Below, piece after piece: positions 55,715 to 64,000 of a stretch of 64,000 bases of DNA; within the stretch, counting starts at the first letter, position 1; every line of letters begins with the position of its first letter. Position numbers and translations under genes: made by a program. Below the pieces are notes generated by a model, which worked only from the letters and a program-made list of their open reading frames with translations, was not told the origin of the DNA and did no database searches. Source of the stretch: Tetradesmus obliquus (lineage: Eukaryota > Chlorophyta > Chlorophyceae > Sphaeropleales > Scenedesmaceae); the NCBI GenBank assembly GCA_030272155.1, contig CP126195.1, positions 3,145,001-3,209,000 on the forward strand. The letters are read 5' to 3'.

Positions 55715-57577
55715 CTAAGTGACATTGCTGATGACGATGTGCAGGTGCCAGCCTGCGCATGTGCTGGCAAACAGCACTTGAACACAGCAGGTGCAGCGCC
55801 TTGCTGTCGCATACAACCCAGCACTCAACCCCAGAAACACAGCAAACGTGCATCCTCTTGCAGGAGGACCAGCCGCTGCTTGCAGGAAACCCAGCCCGCC
55901 AGCACGCCGCAGCCCACCTTGCATGCGCTTGCTCGACTGCTTGCTCAGCTCGTGAGCCTTGTTTGTCCACGCACTTGTCAGCATAGCGATGGTTGGCCCA
56001 AGCGTGCTCATCATCATAAATGACATGTTGGCCCCGGGCGAGTGCTGCGGCTGCAGACCCCGCAGCTTACTGAGGAGCCCACCCTCATGCACCAACACCA
56101 GCAGCTGCTCCTGGCTGCACACCTGCAGCAGCAGTAGCAGCAGCAACACCAGCAGCGGCAGGTTTAAGGCTCGGAGGTTGCAGAACTGCGTTGACTGCTG
56201 ATGGTCATCATCACCTCACTCTTAACATGCACTGACAGCAGCAGTTTCTCCTTCTAGCGTCGTGCAGGCACAACTGCCTGTTGATTTGGAGCAACAGGAC
56301 ACAAGCCAGTCAATTCAACTATGCACACAGCAGCTCATGCATCTGTACGCCTTGCAGCGCCCACACATCCGTTAGGTACAACCAATGTATGAAAAAGATG
56401 CCTTTACCAAATCCTGCAAAGCACCAACTGCATGCCTTGCTAGACAGCAGCAGCCTCACCTGCACCAGTGCATAGCAGAACCTGCAGAAGTAGTAGTTGA
56501 GGCCCCCACTGGCAGCATTCATAAATTGCTTGTCATACTCTGCATCCTCCCAGTCGTGCTGCTTGTCCTTCAGTGCCCGGGCCTCATCCTCACAGCGGTC
56601 CTCATCCCAGCCTTGCTGCTTGCCCTTGACCCGCACATCTTCACGTGCTGCTGCTGCCTTCTCGATCTGTTGATGCAGTGTGTTGCACATACTTGTTGGC
56701 TGCAGAGATGCTGTTGTTTGCAGGACAGGGATGCTTGCAGGATACTTGCCAGGCCAGCACAGTACCATGCAAATCAGGCACAGCACAGCGTGGTGCAACG
56801 CAGCACAAGACAGCACAGCCCAGAACTACGCAGCGCAGCATGGTGCAGCACAGCATAGGCCAATGCAGTGCATACTCACCCAGAGTGTGTAGGGGTCTTT
56901 GAACAGCTGGCACACTTTCAAGCCAGTCTGATCCGCCATGTGTGCTGCCAGCTGCCTGCTGTTTAGGGAGTTGCCTGCGATGTTAAGCAGCCGCACTACT
57001 GCAGCTTGGCTCTGCTCCTTTGCTGCCTCAAAACGCTCTGGGTCCTTGGTGTGCATCGGGCAGCTGCAAGCAGTGAAACAGGCAAACGTTTTTGCGTTGC
57101 TACACGAGGAATGTCTTGTACACAGATGTCCAGGCTACAAAGCACAAATGCTGCGCGGGTTCACATTATGAACGTTCTCTGCAGCAGAAAGTTCTCTGCA
57201 GCAGCTGGTGCCAGCACACTGCAGGTTGCCGTTCACACGCGGGCCTAATGTTACTCTGCAACCATGAGCAGCTTTTAAATAATCATCAACTGACGACGTG
57301 CATGTATCCTGCAAGACACTGCAGCAGCTGCTGCAACAAGCAGCATGCTGCAGCAGGCACAGTAGCAGCAGCTGCCAGCTCACTCGATGTGAGCCATGCT
57401 TTGCTCCAGCATGCGTGGCAGGGCAAGCGGCTCAAACAAGCCAGCCCGCTCCATCTGCAGCACATAGGGCCTACAAATAGCAGCATCGACAGCAGCAGCG
57501 GCAACGGCCTCGCACAAAGCCACATAAAAAAGCAGTTTGTCATGGTGACAATGATACACCTCGCTACACAGAGACAT
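55715..57577 (-). CDS. uncharacterised protein, four exons
   Basis: Exons 57577-57384, 57063-56880, 56666-56460 and 56122-55715 join in phase (about 330 aa). Segments include RPYVLQMERAGLFEPLALPR, ERFEAAKEQSQAAVVRLLNI, LKVCQLFKDPYTLW, a highly charged helix (QGWDEDRCEDEARALKDKQH) and GGLNYYFCRFCYALVQ, then TLGPTIAMLTSAWTNKAHEL. The last exon is read through to a stop after a hydrophobic stretch; a donor at 55917 (CAAG/GTGGGC) would end it earlier and lead to an unknown exon. The start at 57577 is the first ATG of an open frame and may be an internal exon. The family is not recognised. The neighbouring TPR gene starts 150 bp downstream in the same orientation, so one longer gene cannot be excluded. 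Confidence 0.55.
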
Positions 57578-57941
57578 TAAAGTTTCTCCTCAGGAGTGCA
57601 ATGCAATGCCAGGCCGCCAGCAAGGTCCATAACAGTACTAGCATGCGCTGTCCTTGCACGCTATGTTGCGCCATCATGCTGCACGAGTATGTGTGCTGCA
57701 GCCCTGCTGCTGTTAAGCTGCTGCCTCAGGCTAGCTTAGCTAGTAGTGCTCAACACGTGTAGTCTAGTCTGTGCTGTTGCGGCCAACACCACGCGATCCT
57801 GCCCAAGGGCGGCCGCACAGCATCAGCATATAAACAGCTGCGGCTCAGTCAACTTAGCAGGAGCCGTAATTGTACTGGCAGGACTCACATCTAGTTGCTC
57901 ATGTCAGCTACGCAGTCGAGTGCAATCCTCCTGGGGGACCC

Positions 57942-58574
57942 CTACTGCTCTTCTCCTGGCTCCGGCTCGATGCCTGGCAGGGTGCAGGGGCCGTCCCCAC
58001 AATCCACAACAGCATCATAGGGGTGTGATGATGTGTCCAGGTTGCCATCAGCAGGCCAGCCTGTCACAGCAACGCGCACAAGAGCCTCCAGACCTCCCGC
58101 AGCTATGCAGGGTTGTATCTCTTCGCCAAAGCCTGCTTCCCTGTGCAGCACCGCCAGCTGCCGAATCACCTCTCCTGCAAGCAGTAGATTTGGCAAGCAG
58201 CTATGGCGAATACAGATATGCTTGCCACAGCAAAGAGGGGTAGACGTGTAGTCCCCGGCATGTGCTGGGACCGGTATAGCTGTGACAGTCAGCATGCACA
58301 GCACACACAGCGTTCTGCTGCGCCTGCTGTTTGTTGCATAGGCAGATGACCTGCTCAACCTGCAAACACACTAGTCACACAATACTAAAAAGAGAAGCCA
58401 GGCACTTATACAAGCATCATGCAAGATCAGGCTGTGGTGCCCATCTCAGCTGTTGTTGCTGCTGTTATGTGCTGCTTGGAAAGCAGGCACCCTAGACTCA
58501 CTAGGAGGCAGGTCATCTTTCTGCAGCTTCTCAACGCATTCCCTAAACATCGAAAGTGTTTGATTGCGCGGCAT
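57942..58574 (-). CDS. uncharacterised small protein, three exons
   Basis: Exons 58574-58491, 58359-58272 and 58174-57942 join in phase (134 aa). The sequence begins MPRNQTLSMFRECVEKLQKD and continues with VEQVICLCNKQQAQQNAVCA, GEVIRQLAVLHREAGFGEEI, CIAAGGLEALVRVAVTGWP and an acidic tail ending EPEPGEEQ. The helical AGGLEALVR pattern is reminiscent of armadillo-type repeats but too short to assign. The frame and splice sites are clean; function unknown. An upstream exon is possible. Confidence 0.5.
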
Positions 58575-58825
58575 CTGCCCTGCTTTTCGCGAATTGCCTG
58601 GGCTGCTGAAGCAATGATCACCCGATCGCCAACATGCACGCCACGTATAGCGATGGTAAGCACAATTTACCGCATTCGGTATAACTCCATACATCTGGAC
58701 GAACTCACGAGAATCCCTCTGTGGGACAAGTACTCTGCACCTGCAAACCTTGGCACTGGCAGTGCACTGAACCACCAGTACAACAAGCTTTGCACACTGG
58801 CGGGGGACGGCCGGGTTGCGCGCTG

Positions 58826-58947
58826 CTAACGAACGCGGATGAGGGCGAAGGCCCTGGCACACTCGTCAACCGTGTGCAGGTTCATCATTGTCACCTGCCA
58901 TGCCTGACGCATGGGGTACTTCAGGTTCAGCACAACCAGGATCAATC
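58826..58947 (-). CDS. 3' terminal exon of an unidentified gene
   Basis: After an acceptor (GATCTCAG) the frame reads LILVVLNLKYPMRQAWQVTM, then MNLHTVDECARAFALIRVR and a stop. Composition is convincingly protein-like. Candidate upstream exons between 59050 and 59440 do not give a consistent phase, so the gene is left open. Confidence 0.45.
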
Positions 58948-59565
58948 CTGAGATCGTATCACACCAACGTTACACGCTCCTGCACCGCAATCACCGTTTC
59001 ATGATGACAAGATTGACATATTACCTCACCAATTTAGCCTCACTGATGTCCTGCAAACCTGATGCACACTCAGGGAACACATGACATCACATCAGTCTGT
59101 CACATTTGCAGACAATCAAACTCCAGCACTGTAAATGTATGTACGCAAGAAGCTGCAGTGCAGCATGATTACTTTTTTGGCGTCATTCCAATCACCTGGA
59201 GGCCCTCCATGCATGGTGCATACAGCCGTGGCACGCAGCGTCCGTGGTTTGGGGCGCCTGAGCATGTTGCTTTGCTCCAATACACATGCTAAAGGGTTGC
59301 TTTGTTTGGAGTGTTGCGCAGTGTTGCGCAATGGGCTGCTGGATAGCTTAGCCTGAATAGGTGGCATTGAGAATCTGTGCCAGATCCGCACACAAGCCAG
59401 TGCTTCCGTGCGGCACGGCTGTTCAGCTGTCATGGAAAGTGTACCATTGTCCTCGGCCAGCAGCGCTGCTCAGCAGGCTAGCATCCACGACCAGCGGTAT
59501 TTAGATCGCTGGGGCTGTGCAGGCATCAGGGACGGCCGTAGGTGAGCTTGAGTCCAGGATTTTGT
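58948..59565. other. interval with possible upstream exons of the 58826 gene
   Basis: A minus-strand frame from ATG 59433 (MTAEQPCRTEALACVRIW...) is open to 59116 but cannot be tied to the terminal exon. Nothing else recognised. Confidence 0.3.
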
Positions 59566-61311
59566 TCAGCCTGACTTAGCATCCTGCAAGTCAGCAGAAA
59601 TGTCGTCACTCTTAAGGGCCACTCCTGTATGGTGTAAGACATGCAAGTTACTGTGCTGGTTCCGATGCTGAAGAGCACTGCTGCTTCTGCAAGCCACGCA
59701 GCATGAGCATCCACCAATGGTGTGCAGATGTTGGCAGCACACCACACCGGTAAGTTCTACGCATTCTTGCAAGCTGCCACCATTGGTTGCTGTAACTCTG
59801 CCCACCTTTGCCTCCACCAGGCAGCATCCTGCCATGGGGGCGGCCAGAGGCAGCATCTTCAGGTGTTGCTGCTGCACCACCCAGCAGCCCACGCTTGAGG
59901 CCTGCAGAGCAGCGGCGTACAGCACCATGTGGTGCAACCTGGACAACTGGTGGTTTACAAACTATTCTCTGACTGCCAGCTGCATATTGCCTGCATCACT
60001 GCTCTGCATGTAAGCTGCAGCACCAGCTGCTGTTCAATGCATGCAGCTGTGCCAGCTAGCAGACATGTGCGCTTGTGCATGTTGGTGTCACAAGCAATTG
60101 CTGTGAAAGCAACCTGCTTCCCCTGCAGTGCCTCGCGAGGCGACGGCGATCGCCGTCGTAGCCCCAGCAAAGCACAACGGGCATTTCTGACTGACTGCTT
60201 TCCAGCCTGTCTTTGTTGCTGCGCTGCAGTTTCGTTGCAAGCCAACACATGTGCTGCACAAATCGGCTCAAACACAGCAAGTTCCTGCATAACACGCGCT
60301 TGAAAAGTGCAAGCTGCTCACCGCGGCCTCCGCCAGGCAGCATCCTGCCATGTGGGCGGCCAGATGCATCAGCATTGCCGTCAGCTGCTGCTGCTGCAGC
60401 CAGCAGGCCACGTGCAGGGACATCATCAGGCACCAGCCTACTGCCACCTGCAGGAGCCAAGCATGCAGGAGGTAAACACTTTGATCAAAAAAATGCACTT
60501 ACATACTACGCATGTGTGCAGGATGTTTGAGCAGTGGATGCACGTGGCATGCACATGCAATCCCTCTCGCAGCCCTTGGTAGCTAGCCTTCTAGCTTGTA
60601 GGAATACGGCATGAATAGTGACAGAGCGATGCACCTGCATGCCTCATGCCCCTGCTGCTGCGTGCAGCTGGTCACCCTGCCTAGCGCTGCTCACCGCGGC
60701 CCCCGCCAGGCAGCATGCGGCCATGAGGGCGGCCAGAAGCAGCACCAGCTGCTGCTGCTGTGCTCATCATGTGGCGCCCTGCGGCAGTTGCGGCAGCGCA
60801 CATGCGTTCACCTCGCTAACACGGCTCCGCTAGCACGGCAAGCTGTGTGTGGGTCGCTGACAACCACTTGGTTGTTTAGAAGAGCTGTGCCCTAGCTATG
60901 CATCACAGGCGCATGACCAGGGGGTGTACAAGGATCGTCCTTGTAGGAAGCTGTGCTCGTAACAGCAGAGTCTGCTGTTATGAGCACAGCTTCAGGCTGC
61001 GCATTTATGCAGGCAGGCAGTGACTCCAGCTCAGGAGTGAGCTTGGTGCCTTGATTGCAGCTGCACACTGCTGTTGTGCTGCTCTGGTTAGCTGGGAGAC
61101 TCAGGCACATTGCAACAGCTGTGCTGCTCTGGTTAGCTGGGAGACTCAGGCACATTGCAGGCTTCTCCTGCTGCAACGTTTCAACCCTACATTCGAAATC
61201 ATGTTAATCCGTGAGGACAGCACCTGCATGACGCGAAGCTAAGCCCACGGCCAACGAGGCCAGGAGCAGGCTCAGCAGGAGCCACGCCGAGTTGGGTTTG
61301 CAGCACGCCAT
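59566..61311 (-). CDS. small secreted protein with three exon-encoded SGRPHGRMLPGGG repeats
   Basis: Five exons, all separated by phase 1 introns: 61311-61224, 60778-60695, 60447-60322, 59901-59806 and 59624-59566 (150 aa). Exon 1 is a textbook signal peptide (ACCKPNSAWLLLSLLLASLA, then VGLASRHA). Exons 2, 3 and 4 each end in ASGRPHGRMLPGGG followed by R, R and K and a Gly split by the intron. The parts before the repeat vary and are Ala-rich, with basic sites VPARG and LKRG. Exon 5 is short and acidic (VALKSDDISADLQDAKSG). The repeats with single or paired basic residues and a C-terminal Gly-Gly-Gly-Arg/Lys look like a secreted peptide precursor. Green algae are known to have prohormone-type processing and peptide amidation. 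A short structural wall or matrix protein is the alternative. No known family is recognised. Confidence 0.72.
61077..61160. repeat. two-copy 42-bp tandem repeat in intron 1 of the repeat-protein gene
   Basis: GCTGCTCTGGTTAGCTGGGA followed by GACTCAGGCACATTGCA occurs twice. On the coding strand it reads CLSLPANQSST twice in an open frame, but the frame does not match exon phases and ends in stops. Confidence 0.8.
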
Positions 61312-62598
61312 GGACTATCGCCTGCGCCGGCAACAACGCGGAAATCAGTTTGGCTTTTCAGAGCGTGCAAAAACGCGGAACGCGGAAATCAGTTTGGCTT
61401 TTCAGAGTGTGGTATCTCTGCTCTGCAGCCCTAGAGGGTAGAGGGTGTGGAGCCCAGGGGCGCCGCCCCTGGCCACACACACCCTCTTAGCCTTAACTTA
61501 CCCAGGAGCTGCAGAGCTGCCTGGGTAGTCACTCACTCACTCACTCACTCTGCAGCCCTGATCGTACTTGAGATCGCTCCAACGCCAATATATAAGTGAC
61601 GAGCTGCACAAGCGCACATTCAAGCCCAGGGTTTGAGATAAACAGCACAAAACTGAAACTGAACATCATCGACAAAGCTGGGTGGCAATGCGCGATGCCG
61701 AGGTTAAGGGCCGCAAACCCTACCTCTGAGATTTCGTTAAGTACAGCACAGGCGTCTGACCTGCTTCTCAACATAAGACAAGCTTGTTATATTGGTGTCA
61801 AAACATTGTTCGACACTGCCTGCTGCTGCCCACCACTCATGTTCAGATAGGTAGCCCAACAGCAAACTGACCATGCCATACAGCTGTAGGTACTGCCTGT
61901 GCGTGTTGCAACCTGCAGGTAGAGCTGGTGGCACCTTGTGTAAGGTGCACATACGATTCCCAAAGATATCAGTGACAAATGCCCATATGATACCACGCCT
62001 TGCGCTGTAGTACAAGGTGTACAAATGCTGCAGCACAAGCACCAACAAATGCTGCAGTACAAGCGCCAACAAATGCTGCAGTACTACTGCTTGTGACAAG
62101 CGCGTCAACAATCCACTGGCTCACGCCACATGCGCAGCACTGCAAAGTGCTGCTTGCTTTGTGACACCAGCTGCAGTATTGCACACAACTCCACTTTGAA
62201 CTTGCACTGCATACTGCTCACACTTTCAGCCAAAGTGGTACATGCACCGGCAGTGACTATGCGCATGAACCTGGCAACCGCAGCAACCCAACCTATAGAA
62301 CCACAGGTATTGCTAGCTGGCAACTTGGACAGCTCTTGCGCGCCCATCCACCGCTGTAACAGCGCATGTATGTGATTTGAAACAAGAAACTCACGAATGC
62401 TGGGAGCCCATGAGAACGCAAGCTGCGCAATTTCAGCGCATTGCTAGGCCAGCAGAGGCCCTCCCGGCCTCCCCTGGTGTTGCGACTGATCAGCTCGTGA
62501 GCTGCCATGCAGGATATGCTGCCGTAGCAGCGCCCGCGAGCTGTGTGTCGTTGACTCTGCTGGCAGCAGCACACATTGTCATGGCTTGGTTGGTGACA
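61312..62598. other. intergenic with short direct and inverted repeats
   Basis: CGGAAATCAGTTTGGCTTTT then CAGAG occurs at 61339 and 61384. A cluster of inverted repeats spans 61437-61535 (GAGGGTGTG..CACACACCCTC; CCAGGGGCGCCGCCCCTGG; CCCAGGAGC..GCCTGGG) and ends in (CACT)n. It lies upstream of the repeat-protein gene. GCTGCAGTACAAGCGCCAACAAAT-type units repeat around 62020-62090. No gene seen. Confidence 0.6.
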
Positions 62599-62722
62599 TT
62601 ATGATGGCTTTGATGGTGGCTGTGGGAAGCCGTGCTGCACGAGCTGCGCCAGGGGCCTGAAGATGGTCATGCCTTGCCAGGTGGAGGGGTCTGCACCCAC
62701 CCAGCGCCAGCCTACAGCAGCA

Positions 62723-62780
<58 letters not shown>

Positions 62781-63811
62781 CGTGGTGATAGATTGTTACT
62801 GAATGTCCAACTGTTGGTGTATCCACTCTAAATTGAGCTGTGAAGGCGAAGCTGGGCTGTTACTCCAACCAGCAGCCCTGCTGGACTTGACCTGAATAAT
62901 GATGTTCTGCACCTTGAGCTGCTGTCACACCTCAAGTGTGTGCATGAAGTCCCATGTGCGCATCACGTCACCACTGCCAATAAGTGTTTGCGCTTACCTT
63001 TGCACTTCTCAGGCTCCACCACCACTGCCTCAGCCTCCTGCACAGCACAAGGTGCAGTATTCCATGAGGATGGGGTAACACGCATGAGAACTGACCTCTT
63101 GCCAGCTTGTAGCATGTTGCCACTGCCAGTGCCGCTGCATCCTCAAACCCACAGCAGCTGTCGATTATGTAGGTTCCTGATAATGCACCTGTCATGAATC
63201 CAATGATGCACGGATGTGAAGAGACAGGTTGTCTGCTGTATCGGCCCGTGAACTGGCAGCTGCTGCCACCAAGCCGGGGCAGCTCAAGATGCTGCCTGTG
63301 GCATTGCAACATCATTAAATGTACGAAGTGACATGTTACATTTGACGCGTAACACGCAGCGCATCCACGCACCTCTGCTGCCTGGCCCTGCATGAAGATG
63401 ACAACGTAGTGCTGCCCTGTGGGGAACACCACGTTCTCTGCTGCTGCAAATCGCACGTTGCTGATGGTGATACCAGTCTCCTCTAGAACCTGCATAGCAT
63501 ACGCACATGCAAGTCAACGAGGATGCAAACATGCGCCTACAAACGTGCATGGGCGCAGAATTGCTGCAACTGCAAGTGCAGCGGCAAGAGCAACACAATA
63601 GTGCTGCGCTGATGACATGTGAGTGATGCCGCCCAGCACTTGCAGTGGCGCTGTACTGACTACGGGTTGCTCCATAATAGATATTGCAGTCACTCATACT
63701 TGTGCAGAGGCCTGGCCCTATGTCGTCCCTGATCAACAACAGCACTGCTGCTGCGCCGCACCTCGCGTGCCGCACACTGCTGAAAGCTTTCTCCATGCTC
63801 CAAGTGGCCAC
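62599..63811 (-). CDS. NUDT15/MTH2-like Nudix hydrolase, 3' part
   Basis: Nudix enzymes hydrolyse nucleoside diphosphates linked to another moiety; NUDT15-type members clean nucleotide pools. Four exons join in phase: 63811-63762, 63489-63373, 63037-62998 and 62711-62599. Together the first two give GHLEHGESFQQCAAREVLEE followed by TGI, a complete Nudix box (G x5 E x7 RE-U-x-EE-x-G-U). Then follow NVRFAAAENVVFPTGQHYVV with IFMQGQAAE, VVVEPEKCKGWRWV and FRPLAQLVQHGF, matching NUDT15 strand by strand (VEPEKC_xWxWV). The N-terminal strands (GxFxLP) should be on an exon right of the window. The last acceptor follows a CAG/CTG array at 62712-62776. Confidence 0.88.
62712..62776. repeat. CAG/CAACAG array before the last Nudix exon
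   Basis: About twenty trinucleotide units; CTG on the coding strand, ending in GCTGTAG at the acceptor of the exon starting at 62711. Confidence 0.9.
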
Positions 63812-64000
63812 CTGCAAAGTGAGGCCAGGTCACGTGAATCACGCAACAGAGCAGCAGCAGCAACAGCACGAGCAAATCAAGCACAGCACTGCATGCGCAC
63901 TACCATGATTGCAGGCGCTGAATTGCAGGCGCTGCATTGCACCAAATGCTGGCAGCGAACAGAGTCCCTGCTCTGCTGCTGTGCACTGCATGCCACGCGC

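Follow-up and report, generated by a model that had tools for sequence, protein, structure and literature searches.

A putative repeat-peptide gene of Tetradesmus obliquus with one constrained core per predicted exon

On the minus strand of a 64,000-nt stretch of the Tetradesmus obliquus genome (hereafter the window, meaning the whole stretch analysed), one short peptide is encoded three times, and an earlier note had read this locus as a candidate gene for a secreted precursor in which each repeat occupies its own exon. The question is whether the repeats belong to such a gene, or whether they reflect another kind of protein or no protein at all. Coding and constraint of the core peptide can be asserted with far more safety than every functional reading considered below, and a peptide repeated once per exon is probably real and useful. 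The explanation that we tentatively favour, giving it somewhat less than an even chance, is that an orphan gene encodes a secreted repeat-peptide precursor, whose transcription, splicing, secretion, cleavage, amidation and signalling we infer.

The repeats are three minus-strand blocks of 48 nt (repeat family D1), each of which encodes ASGRPHGRMLPGGG(R/K)G (Table 1). Pairwise, the blocks differ at 5, 6 and 9 nucleotides, spread over nine variable columns, which corresponds to identities of 81-90%. These differences are distributed in a manner that spares the peptide. Firstly, only one of the 16 residues varies (K/R) in the coding frame, versus 5-8 in the other five frames, and when the same numbers of substitutions were placed at random, at most one variable residue was obtained in 5 of 100,000 trials. 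Secondly, the Nei-Gojobori proportions for the three pairs of cores are 0.25-0.39 for pS versus 0.03-0.10 for pN. Thirdly, the sole variable codon (AAA/CGC) differs at all three bases and still specifies a basic residue, which is the site of the proposed cut. Beyond the block, identity in ungapped comparison falls to 0.50-0.67 in the next 12 nt (+48 to +59) and to 0.20-0.33 from +60 to +119, and it ranges from 0.23 to 0.50 in the 90 nt upstream, the background mean being 0.25. Because of the synonymous bias and the lower identity outside the block, the core appears to be kept by protein-level selection, beyond what recent copying alone would give. The selection on the core that had been proposed from the letters is thus supported, as is its near-invariance; its length of 13 residues needs correction, since the block consists of 14 invariant residues followed by R/K and G.

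The same data bear on the view that the repeats encode no protein and are either an element acting at the level of DNA or RNA or the decayed remains of a duplication. The DNA of the locus is CAG-rich and contains many chance open frames, as that view would have it, but amino-acid change is avoided in one frame only, one plus-strand frame over the blocks has a stop in one of the copies, and Rfam gave no match at gathering scores over 56000-64000; we regard a non-protein feature as very improbable. Readings of the plus strand and of other frames, including hydrophobic out-of-frame stretches over the cores, were ruled out by the residue counts.

Table 1. Minus-strand features of the putative repeat-peptide gene (window coordinates)
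Feature	Position	Strand	Description
Core copy C	60740-60693	minus	ASGRPHGRMLPGGGRG; final 2 nt are the donor GT
Core copy B	60367-60320	minus	ASGRPHGRMLPGGGRG; final 2 nt are the donor GT
Core copy A	59851-59804	minus	ASGRPHGRMLPGGGKG; final 2 nt are the donor GT
Predicted exon 1	61311-61224	minus	ATG and signal-peptide-like MACCKPNSAWLLLSLLLASLAVGLASRHA; phase-1 end at CAG|GTGCTG
Predicted exon 2	60778-60695	minus	holds core copy C; alternative 5' end 60811
Predicted exon 3	60447-60322	minus	holds core copy B
Predicted exon 4	59901-59806	minus	holds core copy A
Predicted exon 5	59624-59566	minus	tail VALKSDDISADLQDAKSG and stop

The five predicted exons add up to 453 nt and encode a product of 150 residues. 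Exons 2-4 are each divisible by three and every junction is in phase 1, so that the sequence is compatible with the earlier claim of one repeat per phase 1-1 exon. Under the favoured explanation, this small nuclear gene would encode a basic, low-complexity precursor that carries one peptide in triplicate, with a symmetrical exon for each copy, and the repeat units would have arisen by duplication of a single exon. The introns and the Ala-rich spacers would since have been scrambled by mutation and repeat slippage, with the core being kept at the amino-acid level. The spacers are indeed variable, as had been noted, but they do not vary wholly freely: those of exons 3 and 4 have R-G-L-L and an Ala tract in common, a likeness that at the DNA level amounts to 85% along 27 nt (family D6). 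The GCA/GCT repeats that build this tract are likely to be unstable anyway. The reading frame is kept when any of exons 2-4 is skipped, and therefore copy number could be set by splicing.

The predicted introns have sizes of 445, 247, 420 and 181 nt. Five of the six introns of the D1-protease gene that we tried in the same genome could be resolved; they measure 203-448 nt and have acceptors ending in CAG, and the introns proposed for the repeat gene, being in or near this range, are consistent with them. One exon of this D1-protease gene agrees with PDB 1fc7 at 88 of 88 residues, and another stretch matches chain residues 186-322 with no substitution, apart from one residue inserted by the junction chosen; these PDB entries come from Scenedesmus obliquus, which points to T. 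obliquus or a close relative as the host, and not to Chlamydomonas. Putative intron 1 also contains a near-perfect palindrome (60947-60993; 23-nt arms, 1-nt gap, 96% complementary) and two identical 40-bp copies (61075-61114 and 61120-61159; 45 bp from start to start). A point against the model is that the motif TGTAA is absent from the proposed stop to 58974, whereas according to the part of PMC1868727 cited here, 66.4% of Scenedesmus sequences have UGUAA at most 50 nt from where cleavage occurs; the D1-protease gene, however, likewise lacks it within 1500 nt.

The ends of the model are less secure than its centre. The window contains 201 copies of CTGCAG, versus about 16 expected with equal base use, and acceptor-like sites as well as runs of Ala, Leu, Gln and Cys are therefore cheap there. 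An open phase-1 CAG acceptor lies 8-40 codons upstream in 41% of 20,000 open frames drawn at random from the minus strand, and exon 2 itself has two acceptor options, 60778 and 60811. It is possible that the core exons are coding and that exon 1, exon 5 or both are wrong, in which case the protein would have another N-terminus, starting for example at the ATG at 60803-60801 within exon 2, or another tail, and might not be secreted. This ATG directly follows an in-frame stop, and a start there would give a product without secretion. At the other end, the donor after exon 4 is GTGGGC and not GTGAGC, and if it is unused the exon-4 frame continues to a stop ending at 59648. However, the intron that follows exon 4 begins much like the introns that follow exons 2 and 3 (GTGGGCAG versus GTGAGCAG), in keeping with the identity that extends just beyond the core blocks, which suggests that this donor is in use.

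The signal-peptide-like exon 1 was evaluated with a home-made hydropathy rule, not SignalP, in two scorings. With one of them, 83 ATG frames with a signal-peptide-like start and a phase-1 donor were found on the two strands of the window (128 kb in all), of which 11 equal or exceed the score of exon 1 (counting exon 1 itself and nested starts); the 1.82 kb upstream would thus contain a signal-peptide exon of this quality by chance with P ~0.14. With the looser cut-off of 2.3, there are 76 signal-peptide-like starts on both strands, of which 31 have a phase-1 donor (0.24 per kb), and the chance in 1.82 kb becomes ~0.36; exon 1 is nevertheless the sole such start between 60700 and 62700. The secretion proposed earlier depends on one predicted exon, which chance would supply about once in seven cases, and more often at the looser cut-off. 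The three copies are confirmed, and a five-exon model with the phases given above reproduces the end coordinates of the earlier note; its signal-peptide exon, its exon 5, its exon-2 acceptor and its splicing as a whole are predictions. Taking both ends together, we consider a coding core with a wrong first or last exon to be improbable. A 33-bp direct repeat (97%) lies at 61335-61411, just 5' of the proposed start.

If the precursor of the favoured explanation enters the secretory pathway, its signal peptide would be removed, and an endoprotease would then cut R-MLPGGG-(R/K)|G on the C-terminal side of its conserved basic residue. The R/K might then be trimmed by a carboxypeptidase, releasing three near-identical peptides that end in ...PHGRMLPGGG, and amidation of the released peptides by PAM would be possible. 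R-X6-(R/K) is present in all three cores, and n = 6 is a convertase spacing. The convertase criteria in the cited part of PMC6313938 take n as 0 or 2, and hence the R-X6 spacing falls outside them. The whole product has one dibasic site, one R-X2-K site and no furin site, and neither of the Chlamydomonas amidation motifs, G(K/R)(K/R) and (K/R)XG(K/R), whose criteria were taken from the same part of PMC6313938, occurs in its 150 residues. The C-terminal residue of the predicted precursor is Gly, which that source also counts as possible amidation.

With respect to the enzymes, profile searches of the genome gave five matches over the cut-off for PF03712, and three for PF01082, two of them over the cut-off. 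On one strand of C4:3115445-3117338, PF01082 (the PHM N-domain, at 3115445), PF03712 (the PHM C-domain, at 3116606) and a PAL-like frame (3117009-3117338) follow each other in this order. All 13 PDB matches of the PHM piece are to the amidating enzyme (best E 7.3e-7). The matches of the PAL piece are weak (3fvz, E 0.0059; an unrelated nucleoside hydrolase, E 0.0074; 5wm0, E 0.026), and we assign it to PAL because of its place and order after the PHM pieces. The alga thus appears to possess a PHM-PAL enzyme, judging from pieces of which the PAL one is weak by itself. M14 carboxypeptidase gave six matches at four places in the genome, and a search of the genome for the convertase P domain, which was blind to introns, gave none. 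The amidation suggested in the earlier note is therefore a weak point: PHM and PAL pieces exist, but the product has neither motif and no P-domain convertase was matched in the intron-blind search. PF03712 has four other matches besides the one in this C4 array.

The composition and the spacing of the product are relevant to two other explanations. The main rival of the favoured explanation is that the protein is never cleaved, and that its cores are stickers for binding, strung along a basic and disordered chain that holds multiple molecules of one partner, as the pyrenoid linkers EPYC1 and CsLinker do; such a chain could be secreted, cytosolic or plastid. The first residues of the cores are 43, 85 and 117, which gives spacings of 42 and 32 residues, and the pI of the product is 10.8; the product resembles these linkers in being a basic repeat chain. 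In the cited part of PMC11570498, the FLIPPer linker screen uses a repeat spacing of 20-120 residues, a range that includes both spacings, and the start without a signal peptide within exon 2 would also suit a chain of this kind. Unlike the linkers, however, the product has three repeats only, and inspection by eye shows neither structured repeat elements nor a transit peptide. FLIPPer looks for repeating structured elements, whereas a helix seems improbable in a core so rich in Gly and Pro, and the predicted N-terminus looks to us like a signal peptide and not like a transit peptide. We consider a multivalent protein of this type fairly unlikely, though more probable than any other rival. Alternatively, the product may be a small Gly/Ala-rich matrix or wall protein, in which the repeats serve cross-linking or charge and no signal is released. 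The 28 Gly and 29 Ala among the 150 residues and the signal-peptide-like start fit this possibility. However, it seems that wall repeats would not need a core that varies so little over 16 residues, the product contains no Tyr (nor Phe), and its two Cys are both within the putative signal peptide; we attribute a low probability to a structural protein.

Among known precursors, yeast alpha-factor and the multi-copy neuropeptide precursors of animals consist of a signal peptide and several near-identical units between variable spacers, and their cleavage sites are mostly dibasic, whereas the Tetradesmus product has single basic residues in R-X6-(R/K) and one predicted exon per unit. In plants, there are CLE precursors with several motifs, and the plant elicitor peptide AtPep1 contains a Ser-Gly-Arg-Pro stretch; Pep peptides are present in one copy at the C-terminus of a precursor without a signal peptide. 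As in these plant systems, the precursor predicted for Tetradesmus is variable around a peptide that is short and conserved. The Tetradesmus sequence shares SGRP with AtPep1, a four-residue likeness that is a lead only, and inspection by eye showed no CLE residue pattern. The amidated algal peptides described in the cited parts of PMC6313938 and PMC6919629 come from Chlamydomonas, which is also a green alga with an amidating enzyme. Its PAM-dependent amidated peptides include GATI-amide (Cre03.g204500) and GELNPAGGQLPG-amide (Cre17.g722300), according to the part of PMC6919629 cited here. The latter shows that ends of the LPG type can be amidated in a green alga, and the possible MLPGG end of the Tetradesmus core is close in kind to its LPG-amide. 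In contrast to the Tetradesmus product, the GATI precursor is a 94-kDa protein belonging to an extended gene family, and an exon-per-repeat organisation is not mentioned in that part of PMC6919629. The precursors of the Chlamydomonas screen also differ from the Tetradesmus product in that the latter has neither amidation motif.

We found no relatives of the repeat gene in the searches made. The core was not found elsewhere in the 104.7-Mb genome, outside stretches that read N: the exact pattern gave the three known copies only, as did a pattern with three mismatches allowed (a reversed-pattern control gave none) and a protein search of the genome with E up to 10, in which all three matches were the known copies. 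A query of two joined units gave three scored candidates in the genome, none of which passed E 0.001. There is also no degenerate fourth copy in the window, where the best other 48-mer has 27 of 48 identities on the minus strand and 28 of 48 on the plus strand, versus 42-46 for the cores. The DNA search of the genome gave four matches, namely the locus itself, its palindrome and two short dispersed elements (C7 and C17). The element concerned lies at 60841-60901 and has CAAGTGGTTGTCAGCGACCC in common with C7:3194671 and C17:2497617. Profiles of Pfam and NCBIfam gave no family for the predicted product at E up to 1. Outside this genome, none of 61 stretches was confirmed in the viral contigs of IMG/VR, where the peptide patterns excluded the core, and a separate core pattern gave none there either; the core pattern was not found in the prokaryote genomes of GTDB, PDB gave one chance match (E 0.82) to a query of exons 3-4 only, and the core string had no match in paper text. 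Among the papers listed on algal peptide precursors and on exon-repeat precursors, none showed such a gene in its title or at the start of its abstract. These searches outside the genome are weak tests, because nuclear genomes of algae are not, as such, part of the viral, prokaryote, protein and paper collections.

If a clean repeat-peptide gene is present in an alga with PHM and PAL sequences, it would offer a candidate ligand from another order of algae that is specific and can be synthesized, and it would be a simple test of whether exon duplication also builds peptide precursors outside animals and land plants. A wider version of the favoured explanation, in which the locus represents an unrecognised sphaeroplealean family of peptide signals, each copy occupies a symmetrical exon of its own, alternative splicing sets the copy number without frameshift, and a cut at the R/K after Gly-Gly-Gly gives a Gly-amide end, seems to us rather doubtful.

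As for the surroundings of the gene, exon-like pieces downstream of it, when joined by hand, matched no family, and the possibility that the repeat gene is only the beginning of the gene that follows on the minus strand is unsupported. On its other side, near the right end of the window, a gene for a NUDIX hydrolase is located at 63899-62600 on the minus strand, with PF00293 matching at E 2e-5 in one frame and at E 1.2e-13 when pieces were joined by hand.
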